From positions 1-64,000 of the forward strand of contig NZ_LXYR01000010.1 in NCBI RefSeq assembly GCF_001650195.1: 64,000 nucleotides of DNA. Direction: 5' to 3'. The notes beneath the pieces are model-generated. The model did no database searches. It was not told where the DNA came from and worked only from the letters and a program-made list of their open reading frames with translations. The stretch is from Phormidesmis priestleyi BC1401 (GTDB lineage Bacteria > Cyanobacteriota > Cyanobacteriia > Leptolyngbyales > Leptolyngbyaceae). Positions within the stretch are counted from its first letter, which is position 1, and every line of letters begins with the position of its first letter. Both the position numbers and the translations under genes were made by a program. Below are positions 52,926-57,677 of this stretch, one piece after another.

Positions 52926-54050
52926 TTGGACGTGCGAAATGATCAAGATCAACTGATTCGCGCTGACCCGCCTCAGTGGTTACGGCGACTCCCAACTGCT
53001 GTACGGGTAGCATTATTAGTAGCGCTCTACCTCATAAGCTGGTATGTGCTAGATCTCGTCGCTCTGCGGTTTGAATCAGCACCCGAAATTCAGATCTGGT
53101 ATCCACCATCGGCTCTAGACGTGATGCTGCTGCTAGTGTTTGGGCTGCGCTTTGCGCCAGCCTTGCTGCTCAATACCTTCATCCATGTGTGGTTTGTCAC
53201 GGGTCGCTATCTGCCTCTCGACACGCTGATCATTTTTGACCTTACAACGACTCTGGGCTACACAATAGCGTGTGCTCTATTGCTCCACAAGCTGCGCATT
53301 AACCCTCGGCTGCGGCGACTCCGCGATGTCATTTGGTTTACGGTGATTGCTGCCCTGATCGCCCCGTTGGTCATTGCCCTAGTGCAAGCTGCAAATTTTG
53401 CCGCGATCGGGCTGATTCCCTGGTCAGGCTGGCTGATTTCTACCTTAAATTATTGGGCAGGAGATTCTACTGGCGTTGGAATGCTCGCACCTTTGCTGCT
53501 GGTTCTGTCGCGCAGAGTGCCGTGGGTTTGGACTCACAAAGAGACTCGATCGCAGCAGGCGTTTGAGGACACGCATGAGTTGCGCTTGCCCTCTGGGCGG
53601 GGGTTACCGCTGCTGCTATTCCACATCGTGCTGTTGGCATTGGGTACATGGGCAGCATTTGGTGCTCCACGGGGAGCCAAGTTGGACTATGCCTATCTTG
53701 TTTTTTTACCGCTCATCTGGGTCGCAGTCCAGTTTGGCTTTTCTAGAGCAGCCTTGTCAGTTTTAGGAATTAATGTTGGTGCAGCGCTTTTAGTGGGTAC
53801 CAGCACTGGCGTTGCGAATACGCTGGCGCTGCAATTTGGCTTGATGGCAATGACCCACATAGGGATTTTGTTAGGGGCAATCTCCACTGAGCGCGAAAGG
53901 ACAGAAGTAAAACTGCGGCAGGCGTACCGCAAGGTGCAAACCTTCAACCATAATTTGGAACGCCAAGTCCGCGATCGCCCCCGTCAGCATCAAGCCCAAT
54001 GCCAATGCCCCAACCCGAATTCGCTGATTGGCTTTGTGGTTTGCCTCTGA
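52926..54050 (+). CDS. MASE1-type membrane sensor protein, truncated
   Basis: 374 residues from a TTG start. About eight membrane helices form a MASE1-like domain: VALLVALYLISWYVLDLVAL, IWYPPSALDVMLLLVFGLRF, LIAPLVIALVQAANFAAIGL, LNYWAGDSTGVGMLAPLLLV and FLPLIWVAVQFGFSRAALSV. A coiled stretch (LRQAYRKVQTFNHNLERQV) normally leads into PAS, kinase or GGDEF modules, but the frame then runs into foreign sequence (RDRPRQHQAQCQ) and stops. The output domain has been lost. Confidence 0.7.
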   Translation: MDVRNDQDQLIRADPPQWLRRLPTAVRVALLVALYLISWYVLDLVALRFESAPEIQIWYPPSALDVMLLLVFGLRFAPALLLNTFIHVWFVTGRYLPLDTLIIFDLTTTLGYTIACALLLHKLRINPRLRRLRDVIWFTVIAALIAPLVIALVQAANFAAIGLIPWSGWLISTLNYWAGDSTGVGMLAPLLLVLSRRVPWVWTHKETRSQQAFEDTHELRLPSGRGLPLLLFHIVLLALGTWAAFGAPRGAKLDYAYLVFLPLIWVAVQFGFSRAALSVLGINVGAALLVGTSTGVANTLALQFGLMAMTHIGILLGAISTERERTEVKLRQAYRKVQTFNHNLERQVRDRPRQHQAQCQCPNPNSLIGFVVCL

Positions 54051-54192
54051 CAGCAATTGCTTTGCCTGCTCCTCCGCGTCTAGACGAGTTTGCATCACTC
54101 GCTTATCAGGATCTTGGCTAGCAGCCAGAAACCCCCCGCGCTTCACGACCAAGCCCGTTAGCCGCAAATCTACCTGCTCTGCGCTGTCATCA
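53970..54192 (-). pseudogene. Fragment of another membrane protein joined to the MASE1 gene
   Basis: The minus strand encodes DDSAEQVDLRLTGLVVKRGG, QDPDKRVMQTRLDAEEQAKQ, LLSEANHKANQRIRVGALAL and GLMLTGAIAD: a helical stretch leading into a membrane segment, as in large cyanobacterial nSTAND or TPR proteins. It has no start codon and no continuation past about 53970, where the MASE1 coding sequence ends. The junction is a recombination scar. Confidence 0.5.
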
Positions 54193-54540
54193 TTGATTGG
54201 GCTTTGACTGGGCTTTTCCGGGGAACTTGCACTTCACCTGGATCTTGAACGATCCTTCAGTCGAAGTTTCAGCCAGGACAGGTATGCCTGCCTTTCCAAC
54301 AACTTTTAAATTAAATTCCAGGCTCATTTCTTCGATTTCAGCTAAACCGAAGTTGGCGAATGCACCGATCGCGTACTTGACGTAGCCCCGTATCGTGTTA
54401 TGAACCTTCTGTAAATCGACTGTTGGTAGGTCATCCCGATATTCAGGCTCGTCGTCTGGGACTTCAGTAATATTCTTCGACTCAATGTAAATTTCGTATT
54501 CTTCACCGTTGTCCTTGACGATCAACTTCTCGATTTCCAA
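54190..54540 (-). CDS. Trypco1-like (CU044_2847 family) small protein
   Basis: 116 residues. The N-terminal strands (MEIEKLIVKDNGEEYEIYIE) are followed by an acidic loop (PDDEPEYRDDL) and the characteristic core LQKVHNTIRGYVKYAIGAFA, then IEEMSLEFNLKVVGKAGIPV and GSFKIQVKCKF. This matches the trypsin-co-occurring domain 1 family, known from genome context of peptidase- and NTPase-based conflict systems. It is divergent from the caspase/nSTAND gene with 74 bp between the starts, which fits that association. Confidence 0.6.
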   Translation of the reverse strand: MEIEKLIVKDNGEEYEIYIESKNITEVPDDEPEYRDDLPTVDLQKVHNTIRGYVKYAIGAFANFGLAEIEEMSLEFNLKVVGKAGIPVLAETSTEGSFKIQVKCKFPGKAQSKPNQ

Positions 54541-54614
54541 AATGGATGACCTCGCCAGAAAATATTGCTACGTTGGTAAGAATACCGTGAAACCTCTAGG
54601 CTGGCTCAGGAATT

Positions 54615-57600
54615 ATGACTCGATATGCGCTTGTCGTTGGAGTTGCTAGGTATGACAATTTCCGCAATCTGGATAAGGCGGCTACGGATGCAGCAGCGAT
54701 CGCCCATATCCTTCAAGTTCACGGTCGGTATCAAGTCAAACCATCACCGAGACGGTTGGTTAAGCCAGAAAATCGATGGGAGCTTGACCTAGACAAGAAG
54801 CTGACAGCAAAGGATTTAAGTCAAGACCTCGAAGAATTCTTGCTAGATAAAGCGGAGGGTCATGAGGCGCTGATCTATTTTGCGGGACACGGGTTTGAGT
54901 TGACAAGATTGGGGCGAACAAAGAAGGGCTATCTAGCGACCTCCGATTGTAAGAAAGATGAGGTAGGCAACGCGATTTCGTTTGATGATTTGAATGCCCT
55001 GATTCAAAAATCACGCCTCAGCAGTCTCGTAATGATTCTAGATTGTTGCAATGCAGGGTCATTTCTGGAACGGACGCTACTAGATTCAGCCTTGACTGCC
55101 TTTAATGGGAAGCAAGACTATTACTTAATTACAGCCTGTCGATCGTTTGAACGGGCACGGGAAGGAGAGGAGCATGGTGTTTTTACAGCGTCTGTCCTCA
55201 AAGGATTGCAGGCGGAGAATGCAGACAGTGAGGGGGCTGTAACGGGTGATCGCCTATTTGACTTCATTCAACGCGATTTGCGGCAGAGTGGACAGGAGCC
55301 GATTCGGACAGGAACAGGGCGATCGATCGCGTTAGTGAATTACCAACCGCAAGCGAAAACTGTGACAGCAATTGTGGATGAGGGCGGTGAAATCATCTGC
55401 CCTTATCAGGGGCTACAGGCATTTACAGTAAAGCAACAGGAATTTTTCTTCGGTCGCAAGCAGGTTGTTGAGTTAATTAACCAAAAACTAAATAAAAAGC
55501 CATTTGTTCCAGTGATTGGGGCATCGGGAAGTGGCAAATCTTCAGTGGTGAGAGCAGGGTTGATGCCTTGGCTATCCGAGAGTGGTTGGCACATTTTGGA
55601 GCCAATTAAGCCAGGGTTTGAACCATTGGCAGCATTGCGTGGGACATTTGAACCGTTCTTCAAGCGATCGCGCTCAGAAATTCAAACACTGCATCACTTA
55701 ATTGCTCGTGATTCAGCAGGATTATCCAGCGTAATAGAGCGGTTACCAAACGATGGTAAGTATCTGCTTGTGGTGGATCAGTTTGAGGAAGTGTTTACGG
55801 TTTGTGCAAACAAAACAGAACAGCAACGGTTCATTGAGTTGATTACCCAGATCGCAGAGACTCAAAACTCTCAATTAGCGGTTGTGACAACAATGAGAGC
55901 AGATTTTCTAGAACCCTGTCTGCATCACCCATCATTGCATCAACTGATTCAGTCTCAAGCAGTGTATATGAATCCATTAACTGGAATAAATTTGCGGGAT
56001 GCCATTATGGAACCTGCAAAGCGCCAAGGCTACACAATTGAGGAAGCATTACTACTGCAAATTCTGGAGGATGTAGGAAAAGAACTAGGATTTCTACCAT
56101 TGCTGGAGTTTGTTCTGACAAAGCTGTGGGAGAAACGGGATACAGACGATCATCTGCTAACGCTAGAACAGTATGAAAAACTGGGCGGACTCACTGGGGC
56201 ACTCAATCTCCATGCTGAACGAATTTATCTCTACCAAGATTACAAAGCAGAGTCGCCTTCTGACAAACGAGGTGAGCAAGAGCAAGAGTGGATAAAGCGA
56301 ATCTTTCTGAGACTTGTACGGACAGGAGAAGGAGAAAAAGATACTCGTCAACGCCAACTCAAAGCAAGTTTGTTGACAATCGGAGGAGATGCTCCAGCAA
56401 CGCAAGAAGCTTTGAGAGAATTAATAGATGGCGAGGGTGGGTTAGTGCGAGAGCGGTTGCTATTTTCTGGACAGGAAACCTATGATTTGGAACCTTGGGT
56501 AGATTTAGCACATGAAGCCTTGATAGATGGATGGAGACGATTTGCCGAGTGGCGTAAGGAGAATCGTGAACTACGCAGGTTAACTGATCGACTTGAGGAC
56601 GCGAATCGAGAATGGCTACACAACAAGCAAGATTCTCAATTCTTATTGATGGGAGGGTTTTTAGGTCAAGTACGAGAACAGTGGCAGAAGCTTGAGCCAG
56701 ATTTGAACTCTAGCGTTCGGAAATTCTATGATTTCAGCAACCAATATGAACATGGCCAGATAGCCGAAAAAGAGAGGCAAGAACAGATAACGCTCACCAT
56801 GTATCGCTACATGCCACAAGAACTAATAGAAGAGGTACTTAAAAGTGGTAACGCCAAGTTGGGCGGCGAGCGCAAAGAGGTTTCGGTGCTGACCTCTAGC
56901 ATTCTTGACTACACCACATTAACCGAAATCTTGGCGGCAGAAGAAGTGGTGAAAGTGCTGAACGAATATTTCGAGTTGATGGTGGATGCAATCGCTGCGC
57001 ACAGAGGTACACCATACAGATATACTGATGGCGGTGGGATCATGGCGGTTTTTGGTTCGCTTATACTGGGTGATGGCTCACCTCTGGATGATCACGAGTG
57101 GATGTCGGGGCAAACGGCAGTTGAGATGCTTCATCGGCTCATCGACTTCAACGCAAAACGTCGAGCAGAACATAAGAAGACCATCAAAATCGGCATTGGC
57201 ATCAACTCTGGCACCGTGATTAGCGGCAACATTGGTTCCAGTAAGCGAATGGAGTTTACCGTGACCGGTAGCGAAGTGAGCTTGGGTTCTACATTAGGAG
57301 AAGCCAATGAGCAATACGGCACCGATATTCTAATTAGCGAGAGCACTTATCGCCCCTGCGCCGATCGCTTTTGGACGCGGGAACTCGACTTCATTAGAGT
57401 CAAAGGCAAAAATAACCCGGTGGCTATTTATGAACTGGTGGGGCTGCGATCGGAAAGGATTTCTGACCAAAAGCTGCAAGTGATTGAGCACTACGAAAAA
57501 GCACGAAAGCACTACTTAAATCGCAAGTTTGCTCTCGCGATCGCTGGATTTGCAACCGTTTTAGAAATTGACAGGCGCGACAAAGCGGCGGCGCTGCACA

Positions 57601-57677
57601 TGGAGCGCTGTCAACACTGGCTCACAAATCCTCCGATTGGCGAGTGGGATGGCAGCTTGGAATTTGGTAGACGTTAG
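54615..57677 (+). CDS. Caspase-nSTAND ATPase-pseudocyclase protein
   Basis: 1020 residues. Caspase-like peptidase at 1-245: MTRYALVVGVARYDNFRNLD, His92 in YFAGHGFE, Cys145 in ILDCCNAGSF. nSTAND1-type ATPase at about 262-640: CPYQGLQAF, Walker A GASGSGKSS at 302-310, Walker B YLLVVDQFEE at 383-392. A helical region follows. A class III cyclase-like domain spans about 745-930 (KRMEFTVTG, GINSGTVISGNIG). All its catalytic residues are replaced, so it should be inactive. A C-terminal helical tail ends HMERCQHWLTNPPIGEWDGS. It is probably an NLR-like immune or stress switch in which ligand sensing drives proteolysis. Confidence 0.82.
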   Translation: MTRYALVVGVARYDNFRNLDKAATDAAAIAHILQVHGRYQVKPSPRRLVKPENRWELDLDKKLTAKDLSQDLEEFLLDKAEGHEALIYFAGHGFELTRLGRTKKGYLATSDCKKDEVGNAISFDDLNALIQKSRLSSLVMILDCCNAGSFLERTLLDSALTAFNGKQDYYLITACRSFERAREGEEHGVFTASVLKGLQAENADSEGAVTGDRLFDFIQRDLRQSGQEPIRTGTGRSIALVNYQPQAKTVTAIVDEGGEIICPYQGLQAFTVKQQEFFFGRKQVVELINQKLNKKPFVPVIGASGSGKSSVVRAGLMPWLSESGWHILEPIKPGFEPLAALRGTFEPFFKRSRSEIQTLHHLIARDSAGLSSVIERLPNDGKYLLVVDQFEEVFTVCANKTEQQRFIELITQIAETQNSQLAVVTTMRADFLEPCLHHPSLHQLIQSQAVYMNPLTGINLRDAIMEPAKRQGYTIEEALLLQILEDVGKELGFLPLLEFVLTKLWEKRDTDDHLLTLEQYEKLGGLTGALNLHAERIYLYQDYKAESPSDKRGEQEQEWIKRIFLRLVRTGEGEKDTRQRQLKASLLTIGGDAPATQEALRELIDGEGGLVRERLLFSGQETYDLEPWVDLAHEALIDGWRRFAEWRKENRELRRLTDRLEDANREWLHNKQDSQFLLMGGFLGQVREQWQKLEPDLNSSVRKFYDFSNQYEHGQIAEKERQEQITLTMYRYMPQELIEEVLKSGNAKLGGERKEVSVLTSSILDYTTLTEILAAEEVVKVLNEYFELMVDAIAAHRGTPYRYTDGGGIMAVFGSLILGDGSPLDDHEWMSGQTAVEMLHRLIDFNAKRRAEHKKTIKIGIGINSGTVISGNIGSSKRMEFTVTGSEVSLGSTLGEANEQYGTDILISESTYRPCADRFWTRELDFIRVKGKNNPVAIYELVGLRSERISDQKLQVIEHYEKARKHYLNRKFALAIAGFATVLEIDRRDKAAALHMERCQHWLTNPPIGEWDGSLEFGRR

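Follow-up and report, generated by a model that had tools for sequence, protein, structure and literature searches.

A caspase-nSTAND1 protein of Phormidesmis priestleyi with a captured, catalytically altered copy of a host adenylyl cyclase: a candidate integrated decoy

Related conflict systems

The EACC1-caspase system (Kaur et al., 2020, PMC7159879) is a two-gene conflict system of multicellular hosts in which a constant N-terminal caspase is followed by a highly variable C-terminus, with STAND NTPases among the fused domains. We describe a gene pair that shares these features in a stretch of 64,000 nucleotides from the cyanobacterium Phormidesmis priestleyi BC1401 (contig NZ_LXYR01000010.1, positions 1 to 64,000; the window). 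It consists of a small gene for a trypsin-co-occurring domain 1 (Trypco1) protein and, transcribed divergently from it, a gene for a receptor-like protein that joins a caspase domain, an nSTAND1 switch and a cyclase-like domain in one chain. To judge from identity and tree position, the C-terminus of this protein is a copy of the output half of a conserved host enzyme, an adenylyl cyclase, starting in the linker between its PAS and cyclase domains. An earlier note on this DNA, made from the letters alone, had proposed protease, switch and dead cyclase as a plausible undescribed immune receptor; it missed both the host-enzyme origin of the domain and the exchangeable C-terminal slot, and thus understated the observation. 

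The likeness to the EACC1-caspase system includes the constant caspase with a highly variable C-terminus, found here in 57 proteins with at least seven kinds of tail. On the other hand, the small partner is a divergent Trypco1 gene instead of the 5' EACC1 transmembrane gene, and the protein scores 98.4 bits against the curated NCBIfam model caspase_w_EACC1 (NF047832), which has a cut-off of 140. The variable part also differs: here it comes after a conserved caspase-nSTAND1 body, and some of its contents can be traced to host genes as their copies. In the available part of Kaur et al. (2020), we encountered neither a caspase-nSTAND1-cyclase protein nor a pairing of a caspase with Trypco1, and no host parent is traced; the idea that inactive enzyme domains act as decoys was proposed there. 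For the VMAP/vWA-MoxR ternary systems, the same paper names Trypco1 as a neighbor of trypsin genes. Unlike in those systems, no MoxR, vWA or VMAP domain was found in the two module genes or in the five neighboring open reading frames (ORFs) scanned (52.9-60.5 kb), caspase and STAND switch share one chain, and the dead domain can be assigned to a specific host source. In the literature searched, Trypco1 was named only in the available parts of PMC7159879 and PMC10907252, the latter placing it beside trypsin-like or caspase-like genes at loci of diversity-generating retroelements.

Cyanobacterial orthocaspases (PMC8283722) likewise include caspase homologues with WD40, FGE, pentapeptide and HATPase/HisKA partners. 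HATPase_c and HisKA each occur four times among the accessory domains of that survey, which in its available part gives no cyclase, SpoIIE or phycobilisome domain and does not treat an origin from host paralogues. The Canu caspase-nuclease system (PMC12799240) also relies on a bacterial caspase, a MALT1-like one that is required for phage defense, but its output is a gated nuclease, and its available part shows neither a STAND switch nor a host-derived domain. The window protein matches PycC of the Pycsar systems in PADLOC (E 2e-8), but the six catalytic positions of its cyclase domain are altered, and no adjacent effector that binds cyclic nucleoside monophosphates (TIR or transmembrane) was found among the neighbors scanned. 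No known Avs/AVAST model was matched; at an E-value of 0.01, PADLOC returned caspase, PycC (three models), mad3 and mad8 only.

Plant nucleotide-binding leucine-rich repeat receptors with integrated domains (NLR-IDs) are likewise STAND NTPase receptors to which a domain of host origin has been added, a putative bait for pathogen factors. The window protein differs in being bacterial, caspase-armed and of the nSTAND1 clade; its binding of an invader factor is a prediction, and we claim no common descent of the integration. In the literature searched, again as far as the sources were available, 'integrated decoy' combined with 'antiphage' led only to plant NLR or TIR immunity, and nothing closer was found in the available parts of PMC8195603, PMC6426788 and PMC13236601. 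Provisionally, we regard the family as a new variant among caspase-STAND conflict systems, a statement about novelty in print with most subscription literature outside the search.

Origin and active site of the cyclase tail

Residues 722-1015 of the receptor are 76% identical to a protein encoded on another contig of the same genome (G000:C40:1152-2018). This parent is a 908-residue open frame with GAF, PAS and cyclase domains and intact catalytic motifs, and its tandem GAF domains match the GAF pair of a solved adenylate cyclase, 1ykd (E 6e-170), which we take to be Anabaena CyaB2. CyaB2 has two GAF domains and a C-terminal cyclase (PMC4411481). Among the matches listed and counted by eye, a cyclase at 57-76% identity is present in at least 40 of the 42 genomes of the order, own genome included; the match in G009 is partial, and G010 and G031 are without one among those listed. 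A tree of 54 cyclases pairs the window copy with its own parent (support 99/78) and groups these two with the orthologue of the same genus (100/99). Compared with a CyaB2-type adenylyl cyclase, the source type of the captured piece, the receptor has caspase and nSTAND1 domains instead of the GAF-GAF-PAS half, and all six catalytic residues are altered. The own-genome parent, the tree and a topology test given below indicate that the integrated domain is a copy of a host protein, as in an NLR-ID-like receptor.

The six canonical catalytic positions of class III cyclases read D, K, D, D, N and R in all 48 host-type cyclases aligned and S, R, G, S, S and T in the window copy. Four divergent cyclase rows (L003, L141, L157 and L159) were outside this count, and the six positions stay invariant with all 52 rows. 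The window copy alters 28 of the 119 columns that are invariant in the 48 rows, i.e., 6/6 catalytic and 22/113 other columns (Fisher p=1.1e-4). With all 52 rows, the corresponding fractions are 6/6 and 9/50 (p=1.5e-4), and with the linker left out they are 6/6 and 17/98 (p=7e-5). The probability that all six positions fall by chance among the 70 changes in 288 aligned positions is 1.7e-4. Five of the six catalytic codons differ from those of the parent by two or three bases and the Lys codon by one. With Ser and Gly at the metal positions, Arg and Ser at the purine positions, and Ser and Thr for transition-state stabilization, the domain is predicted not to be an active class III adenylyl cyclase.

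Most of what the earlier note had read from the chain was confirmed. On the caspase side His and Cys are intact, as are the two Walker motifs of the switch (YFAGHGFE, LDCCNAGS, GASGSGKSS and LLVVDQFEE), and the replacement of the metal Asp residues by Ser (VLTSSI) and Gly (TDGGGIM), and of the purine position, Asn and Arg by Ser, Ser and Thr, stands with the motifs exactly as quoted. To these five positions a sixth must be added, the purine Lys to Arg change, which the note had missed, together with insertions of one and five residues. A protease, a STAND switch and a cyclase that is probably catalytically dead thus do occur in one chain. Structure prediction, proposed there as a check, gave a cyclase fold: in the full-length AlphaFold2 model of the receptor (mean predicted local distance difference test score, pLDDT, 77; predicted TM-score 0.44), Foldseek aligned the pseudocyclase with 2w01 at a TM-score of 0.73-0.76 by target length. 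Residues 870-892, which overlap the third cyclase motif, have a pLDDT below 50.

Over the whole captured piece, the ratio of nonsynonymous to synonymous substitution rates (dN/dS, omega) against the parent is 0.175 (dN 0.157, dS 0.90), compared to 0.04 between the two parents (dN 0.041, dS 0.94). Within five codons of the catalytic residues, dN rises to 0.35 (parents 0.01) with an omega of 0.17 and a dS of 2.05 that is near saturation, while in cyclase codons farther from these residues dN is 0.105 (parents 0.060) and omega 0.12. The 37-residue linker beside the junction has a dN of 0.29, with differences at 16 of 36 positions. Well-kept parts are found at parent positions 101-150 (7/50 differ) and 186-225 (6/40) and in the C-terminal tail (6/64). 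Constraint has therefore disappeared from the active site and weakened in the linker, but it persists across the remaining cyclase and the tail. A neutral pseudodomain was considered and rejected, as none of 2000 simulated neutral copies was still open at d=0.48, with a mean identity of 38% (uniform rates assumed), whereas the window copy is open at 76%. The last 69 codons (window 57468-57674), a short stretch, have a dS of 0.39 to the own parent, 0.94 to the orthologue in G030 and 1.6 between the two parents, as if receptor and host cyclase had gone on exchanging sequence by gene conversion.

A second fusion was found in a Mastigocoleus metagenome-assembled genome (L036). In a scan of genome contigs, in which the best 80 of 577 confirmed relatives were examined, it was the best relative (52% identity over residues 1-1007) and the only one of the 80 to span both halves. 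Its cyclase tail is 88% identical to the parent in its own genome (L139) and is sister to that parent in the 54-cyclase tree (100/100). A single inherited cyclase fusion was rejected, since an approximately unbiased (AU) test excludes grouping the two fusions (p=2.5e-5; the window row is a long branch, 0.46). Both captures begin at about the same point of the parent, within the linker that precedes the cyclase. Of the six catalytic residues, the purine Asp is lost in the Mastigocoleus copy (GNGVN) and the other five are retained; the possibility raised in the earlier note, that the substitutions are shared among such fusions, therefore did not hold for the only other fusion found. Among the matches listed, no further spanning fusion was present in 42 genomes of the order or, at a depth of about two scored candidates per genome, in 388 of the class. 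Chance or an assembly artefact could be ruled out by the open 3-kb frame, the parent on another contig at 76% identity and the second fusion elsewhere. The Mastigocoleus genome has two cyclases with, by eye, a GAF-PAS-cyclase layout, L139 (G388:C126) and L141 (G388:C196), and the captured copy derives from L139.

Constant body and exchangeable C-terminus

The wider family was surveyed in a census of loci with 116 distinct front halves, window included. A near set of 57 proteins, again with the window protein, shows at least 48% identity to the window front and reaches its start; it holds close relatives of one another, so that counts are not independent. In addition, 217 genomes were searched with the front half of L037, scoring five candidates per genome, a depth at which rare fusions can be missed. 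A divergent Trypco1 gene lies within 400 bp in 51 of the 57 near-set loci, including the window, which bears out the partnership suspected in the earlier note; the fraction is 10/19 at 38-48% identity, 5/14 at 30-38% and 0/2 below. The six near-set loci outside this count are L048 (Trypco1 3.9 kb away), L121 (frame overlap beyond the limit), L043, L044, L228 and L235. By regular expression, the caspase His and Walker A motifs occur in 57/57 near-set proteins and the Cys and Walker B motifs in 55/57 each. The four misses were cleared by eye (FDSCHSG twice, LLFVDQFEE twice), so all 57 have the motifs.

The tails of these 57 proteins are WD40 repeats (35), histidine kinases of a first (7) and a second type (3), cyclases (2), phycobiliprotein-like domains (2), SpoIIE (1), FGE (1) and a tail without Pfam family (1, L038/L207); two proteins have no tail and three tails are unclassified. 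Tail classes, including most WD40 and FGE assignments, were made by regular expression, and Pfam was run on 10 tails. On the front tree, tail labels change 20 times, against a mean of 21.5 for shuffled labels, and a number as low was reached in 15 of 200 shuffles. Fronts with a type-one kinase require at least five changes on that tree, while their tails fall on one side of a branch of the kinase tree (82/99). Together, these patterns point to tails being swapped as cassettes, with a junction at a roughly constant position behind the nSTAND1 arm. As read from the sequences, the module has a constant caspase-nSTAND1 body, usually a divergent Trypco1 gene, and an exchangeable C-terminal slot.

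Besides the cyclases, other tails could be compared with host proteins. In Nostoc KVJ20 (L042), the tail is identical at 408 of 467 positions (87.4%) to a stand-alone GAF-SpoIIE protein of the same genome. The motifs GGDYYD, IGDVMGKG and YTDGLTD of that protein read IGNYYD, IGNVMGKG and YTNGLTD in the tail, with Asn at three Asp residues that we take to be metal-binding; the chance of three of four named Asp residues falling among the 59 changes is 0.007, and of three of five 0.016. The seven type-one kinase tails are 61-80% identical to a kinase of 574-611 residues of the same strain, and the three run against Pfam (L056, L060 and L040) are HisKA-HATPase proteins. Tyr takes the place of the phospho-His in L206 and L210, two tails that do not pair with each other in the tail tree. 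For the kinase of about 575 residues, more than one independent capture is not supported, given the position of all seven fused kinases on one side of the branch, and a single origin is neither shown nor rejected. For the type-two kinases, no recent parent was found in the own genome; the best non-fusion matches listed are 60-65% identical, among many kinases.

The tail of the Brasilonema CT11 protein (L039) contains a phycobilisome domain (Pfam E 1.7e-7). Its best solved relative is R-phycoerythrin alpha (E 1.4e-11), and Phe is found at the aligned Cys of the CYRD motif, presumably the bilin-holding residue. The best 50 Foldseek rows for its model are phycobiliproteins or phycobilisome chains, including one titled 'bacterial fluorescent protein', a title that also stands next to phycoerythrin in the comparison with solved relatives. 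The tail of Stenomitos L048 is related (E 4e-17, single comparison) and has Ser at the position of the bilin Cys. A search for a recent own-genome parent of the phycobiliprotein-like tail returned only the tail itself from its genome, and one relative at 25% identity from another genome.

Some further members of the family deserve mention. The tail at L038:7041-7478 has no Pfam match at 0.01 and ends in a helical part, which in our view resembles recombination-promoting nuclease (Rpn) families, and adds to the slot contents. In Stenomitos ULC18 (G033:C54), two caspase-nSTAND1 genes stand head to head, L048 with the phycobiliprotein-like tail and L007 with pentapeptide-like repeats, and the Trypco1 gene is nearly 4 kb from L048. 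A distant relative at 37% identity (L055), with a C-terminal domain that is trypsin-like by eye (GSSGSP), lies on AP018182, plasmid2 of Nostoc carneum NIES-2107; this plasmid is typed as conjugative, so the family can be mobile.

The features of the window locus are collected in Table 1. From the arrangement of the two divergent genes, the region between them may act as a common control region. Foldseek neighbors of the caspase domain in the predicted model are MALT1 and GSU0716, and His92 and Cys145, which we take to be the catalytic residues, form a His-Cys dyad in a p20 fold, as in active caspases and orthocaspases; proteolysis is predicted. Both Walker motifs lie inside the nSTAND1 profile, which marks the switch as a probable STAND NTPase.

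Table 1. Coordinates of the two-gene module and of its domains and motifs in the window
Feature	Position	Strand	Basis
Trypco1 gene, 116 aa	54190..54540	-	Pfam PF19493 E 3.3e-15; NCBIfam CU044_2847 family E 1.4e-15
Stretch of 74 bp separating the two divergent genes	54541..54614	.	ORF coordinates, sequence
Caspase-nSTAND1-pseudocyclase gene, 1020 aa, single uninterrupted ORF	54615..57677	+	ORF list, Pfam
Caspase (Peptidase_C14) domain, residues 2-222	54618..55280	+	Pfam E 1e-14
Presumed caspase catalytic His, residue 92 in YFAGHGFE (motif from 88)	54888..54890	+	Motif position
Presumed caspase catalytic Cys, residue 145 in LDCCNAGS (motif from 142)	55047..55049	+	Motif position
nSTAND1 NTPase switch, residues 263-674	55401..56636	+	Pfam PF20703 E 1.4e-107
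Walker A GASGSGKSS, residues 302-310	55518..55544	+	Motif
Walker B LLVVDQFEE, residues 384-392	55764..55790	+	Motif
Captured C-terminal half of host CyaB2-type adenylyl cyclase, residues 722-1015 (linker, cyclase domain, C-terminal helical tail)	56778..57659	+	Identity, tree
Pseudocyclase domain, residues 754-935	56874..57419	+	Pfam PF00211 Guanylate_cyc E 2.8e-15
First metal motif VLTSSI (host VLFSDI): Asp to Ser	56886..56903	+	
Second motif RYTDGGGIM (host KYIGDAIM): purine Lys to Arg, metal Asp to Gly, one-residue insertion	57018..57044	+	
Five-residue insertion LGDGS after FGSLI, absent from host parent	57066..57080	+	
Third motif TGSEVSLGSTLG (host IGDGVNLGARLE): purine Asp to Ser, Asn to Ser, Arg to Thr	57264..57299	+	

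Pfam scans of the neighboring genes identified Trypco1, MASE1, PF04020 and DUF1232, and two ORFs without a family above the cut-off. The MASE1 membrane-sensor ORF (52926-54050, + strand) has no output domain. Its 751-residue homologue in the same-genus genome G030 (39% identity) has, by eye, a kinase half; the alignment stops at about residue 348, and the rest of the homologue has no match in the window. The module may be placed where the MASE1 output half once was, orthology at 39% not being clear. A second Trypco1 gene is present elsewhere in the source genome (G000:C6:93201-93485, L169).

The decoy reading and its alternatives

The best reading, to which we assign a probability of roughly 0.5, is that of a STAND-type, caspase-armed conflict module of filamentous cyanobacteria, with the C-terminal slot as sensor and the dead cyclase as integrated decoy. 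In STAND proteins an N-terminal effector stays inactive as long as the C-terminal sensor has met no ligand, and the pseudocyclase sits where these proteins carry that sensor. This agrees with the sensor role suggested in the earlier note, and an immune receptor would still be the most economical explanation of the chain. The dead cyclase would resemble the host enzyme to an invader factor that binds, modifies or inhibits it, yet could not make cAMP. Once the decoy is bound, the nSTAND1 switch would be freed, allowing NTP-dependent oligomerization and activation of the caspase, and the infected cell would stop growing or die. Trypco1 might serve as an adaptor, or as a regulator or substrate of the caspase, which is the least certain step. 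The logic of an effector kept off until sensing is stated for antiviral STAND proteins (PMC10907252), and a bacterial caspase drives phage defense in Canu (PMC12799240). For one kind of slot content, the phycobiliprotein-like domain, an invader factor is known in NblA, which cyanophages carry and which acts on phycobilisomes; phycobilisome degradation was reported with phage nblA in Synechocystis (PMC4103541). The sequence evidence for a captured, inactivated host cyclase and for an independent second capture is strong, and from it we infer a decoy function, with sensing and cell death as its presumed consequences.

Several observations weigh against the decoy reading. Only two cyclase fusions were found, and the commonest tail, WD40 (35/57), is not a host-derived enzyme. 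Inactive tails are frequent but not a rule: the catalytic motifs are kept in 8 of 10 kinase tails (five type-one and three type-two, the latter by eye), and the Mastigocoleus cyclase retains five of six catalytic residues, with changes that are not enriched at catalytic positions (1/6 vs. 9/113 other invariant positions, p=0.42). In the window copy, divergence extends beyond the active site into the linker. Positive selection for inactivation was sought and not found; since omega is below 1 near the active site too, the values speak for lost constraint there and not for selection for inactivation. We know of no phage factor acting on CyaB2, for which no search was made, and no phage-defense assay of this architecture was found in the literature searched.

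The intact kinases are more easily explained if the slot took up enzyme domains as outputs controlled by the STAND switch, the window copy having simply decayed. Signals in two-component kinases and cyclases usually run from N to C, the captured half is the output half in the parents, and an active or nearly active state is suggested for the same 8 of 10 kinase tails as well as for the cyclase of Mastigocoleus. Such gating accounts less well for the dead domains, as neutral decay is excluded for the window copy by the simulations, losses recur in phosphatase, kinase and cyclase tails, and WD40 is not an output enzyme; we regard it as unlikely. A related thought in the earlier note was that close homologues with an active cyclase would make this copy simply degenerate. 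The own-genome parent is indeed fully intact, but degeneracy does not fit the open frame, the purifying selection over most of the piece and the parallel phosphatase and kinase losses.

In class III cyclases the active sites are shared between the two halves of a dimer, so the dead half might also pair with host CyaB2 and monitor or poison it, tying the caspase switch to cAMP signaling. This guard or dominant-negative role is a serious rival. It would fit the well-kept cyclase core between the catalytic motifs and the C-terminal tail, the start of both independent fusions in the linker, the kinase tails, which presumably also come from dimerizing enzymes, and the last 69 codons, whose dS is smaller against the own parent than against the orthologue in G030, which looks like continued exchange. 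Our confidence in it is lowered because the linker, which contributes to pairing in such enzymes, is among the most diverged parts; moreover, there is no comparable enzyme with which the phycobiliprotein-like, WD40 and FGE tails could pair, and overall we consider this role rather improbable. Least probable by far is that the pseudocyclase binds ATP, cAMP or another nucleotide without turnover and reports it to the switch, as the earlier note had suggested. The cyclase fold is kept in the model, but all six metal, purine and transition-state positions are altered, and the stretch with two of them, in the last motif, is modeled at low confidence.

The decoy reading can be extended, tentatively and at somewhat less than even odds, to the family: the Trypco1/caspase-nSTAND1 chassis may be a cyanobacterial counterpart of plant NLRs with integrated decoys, which repeatedly takes up pieces of conserved proteins of its own host, often disables them and so baits invader factors aimed at the original proteins. 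Its contents would then be the CyaB2 cyclase, captured twice independently, two kinds of histidine kinase, a GAF-SpoIIE phosphatase and a phycobiliprotein-like domain. To our knowledge, the bacterial STAND receptors known so far sense phage proteins via repeat domains. If the extended reading is true, the integrated-decoy solution arose separately in bacteria, and the proposal of 2020 that inactive enzyme domains are decoys (PMC7159879) gains an example in which the parent can be traced and capture took place twice independently. The slot contents would amount to a list of host proteins targeted by cyanophages, so that phage targets could be read from genomes, with CyaB2, the histidine kinase of about 575 residues, the GAF-SpoIIE phosphatase and the phycobilisome as testable predictions. 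The findings suggest that bacteria, like plants, may use dummy copies of their own proteins as bait in immune receptors.

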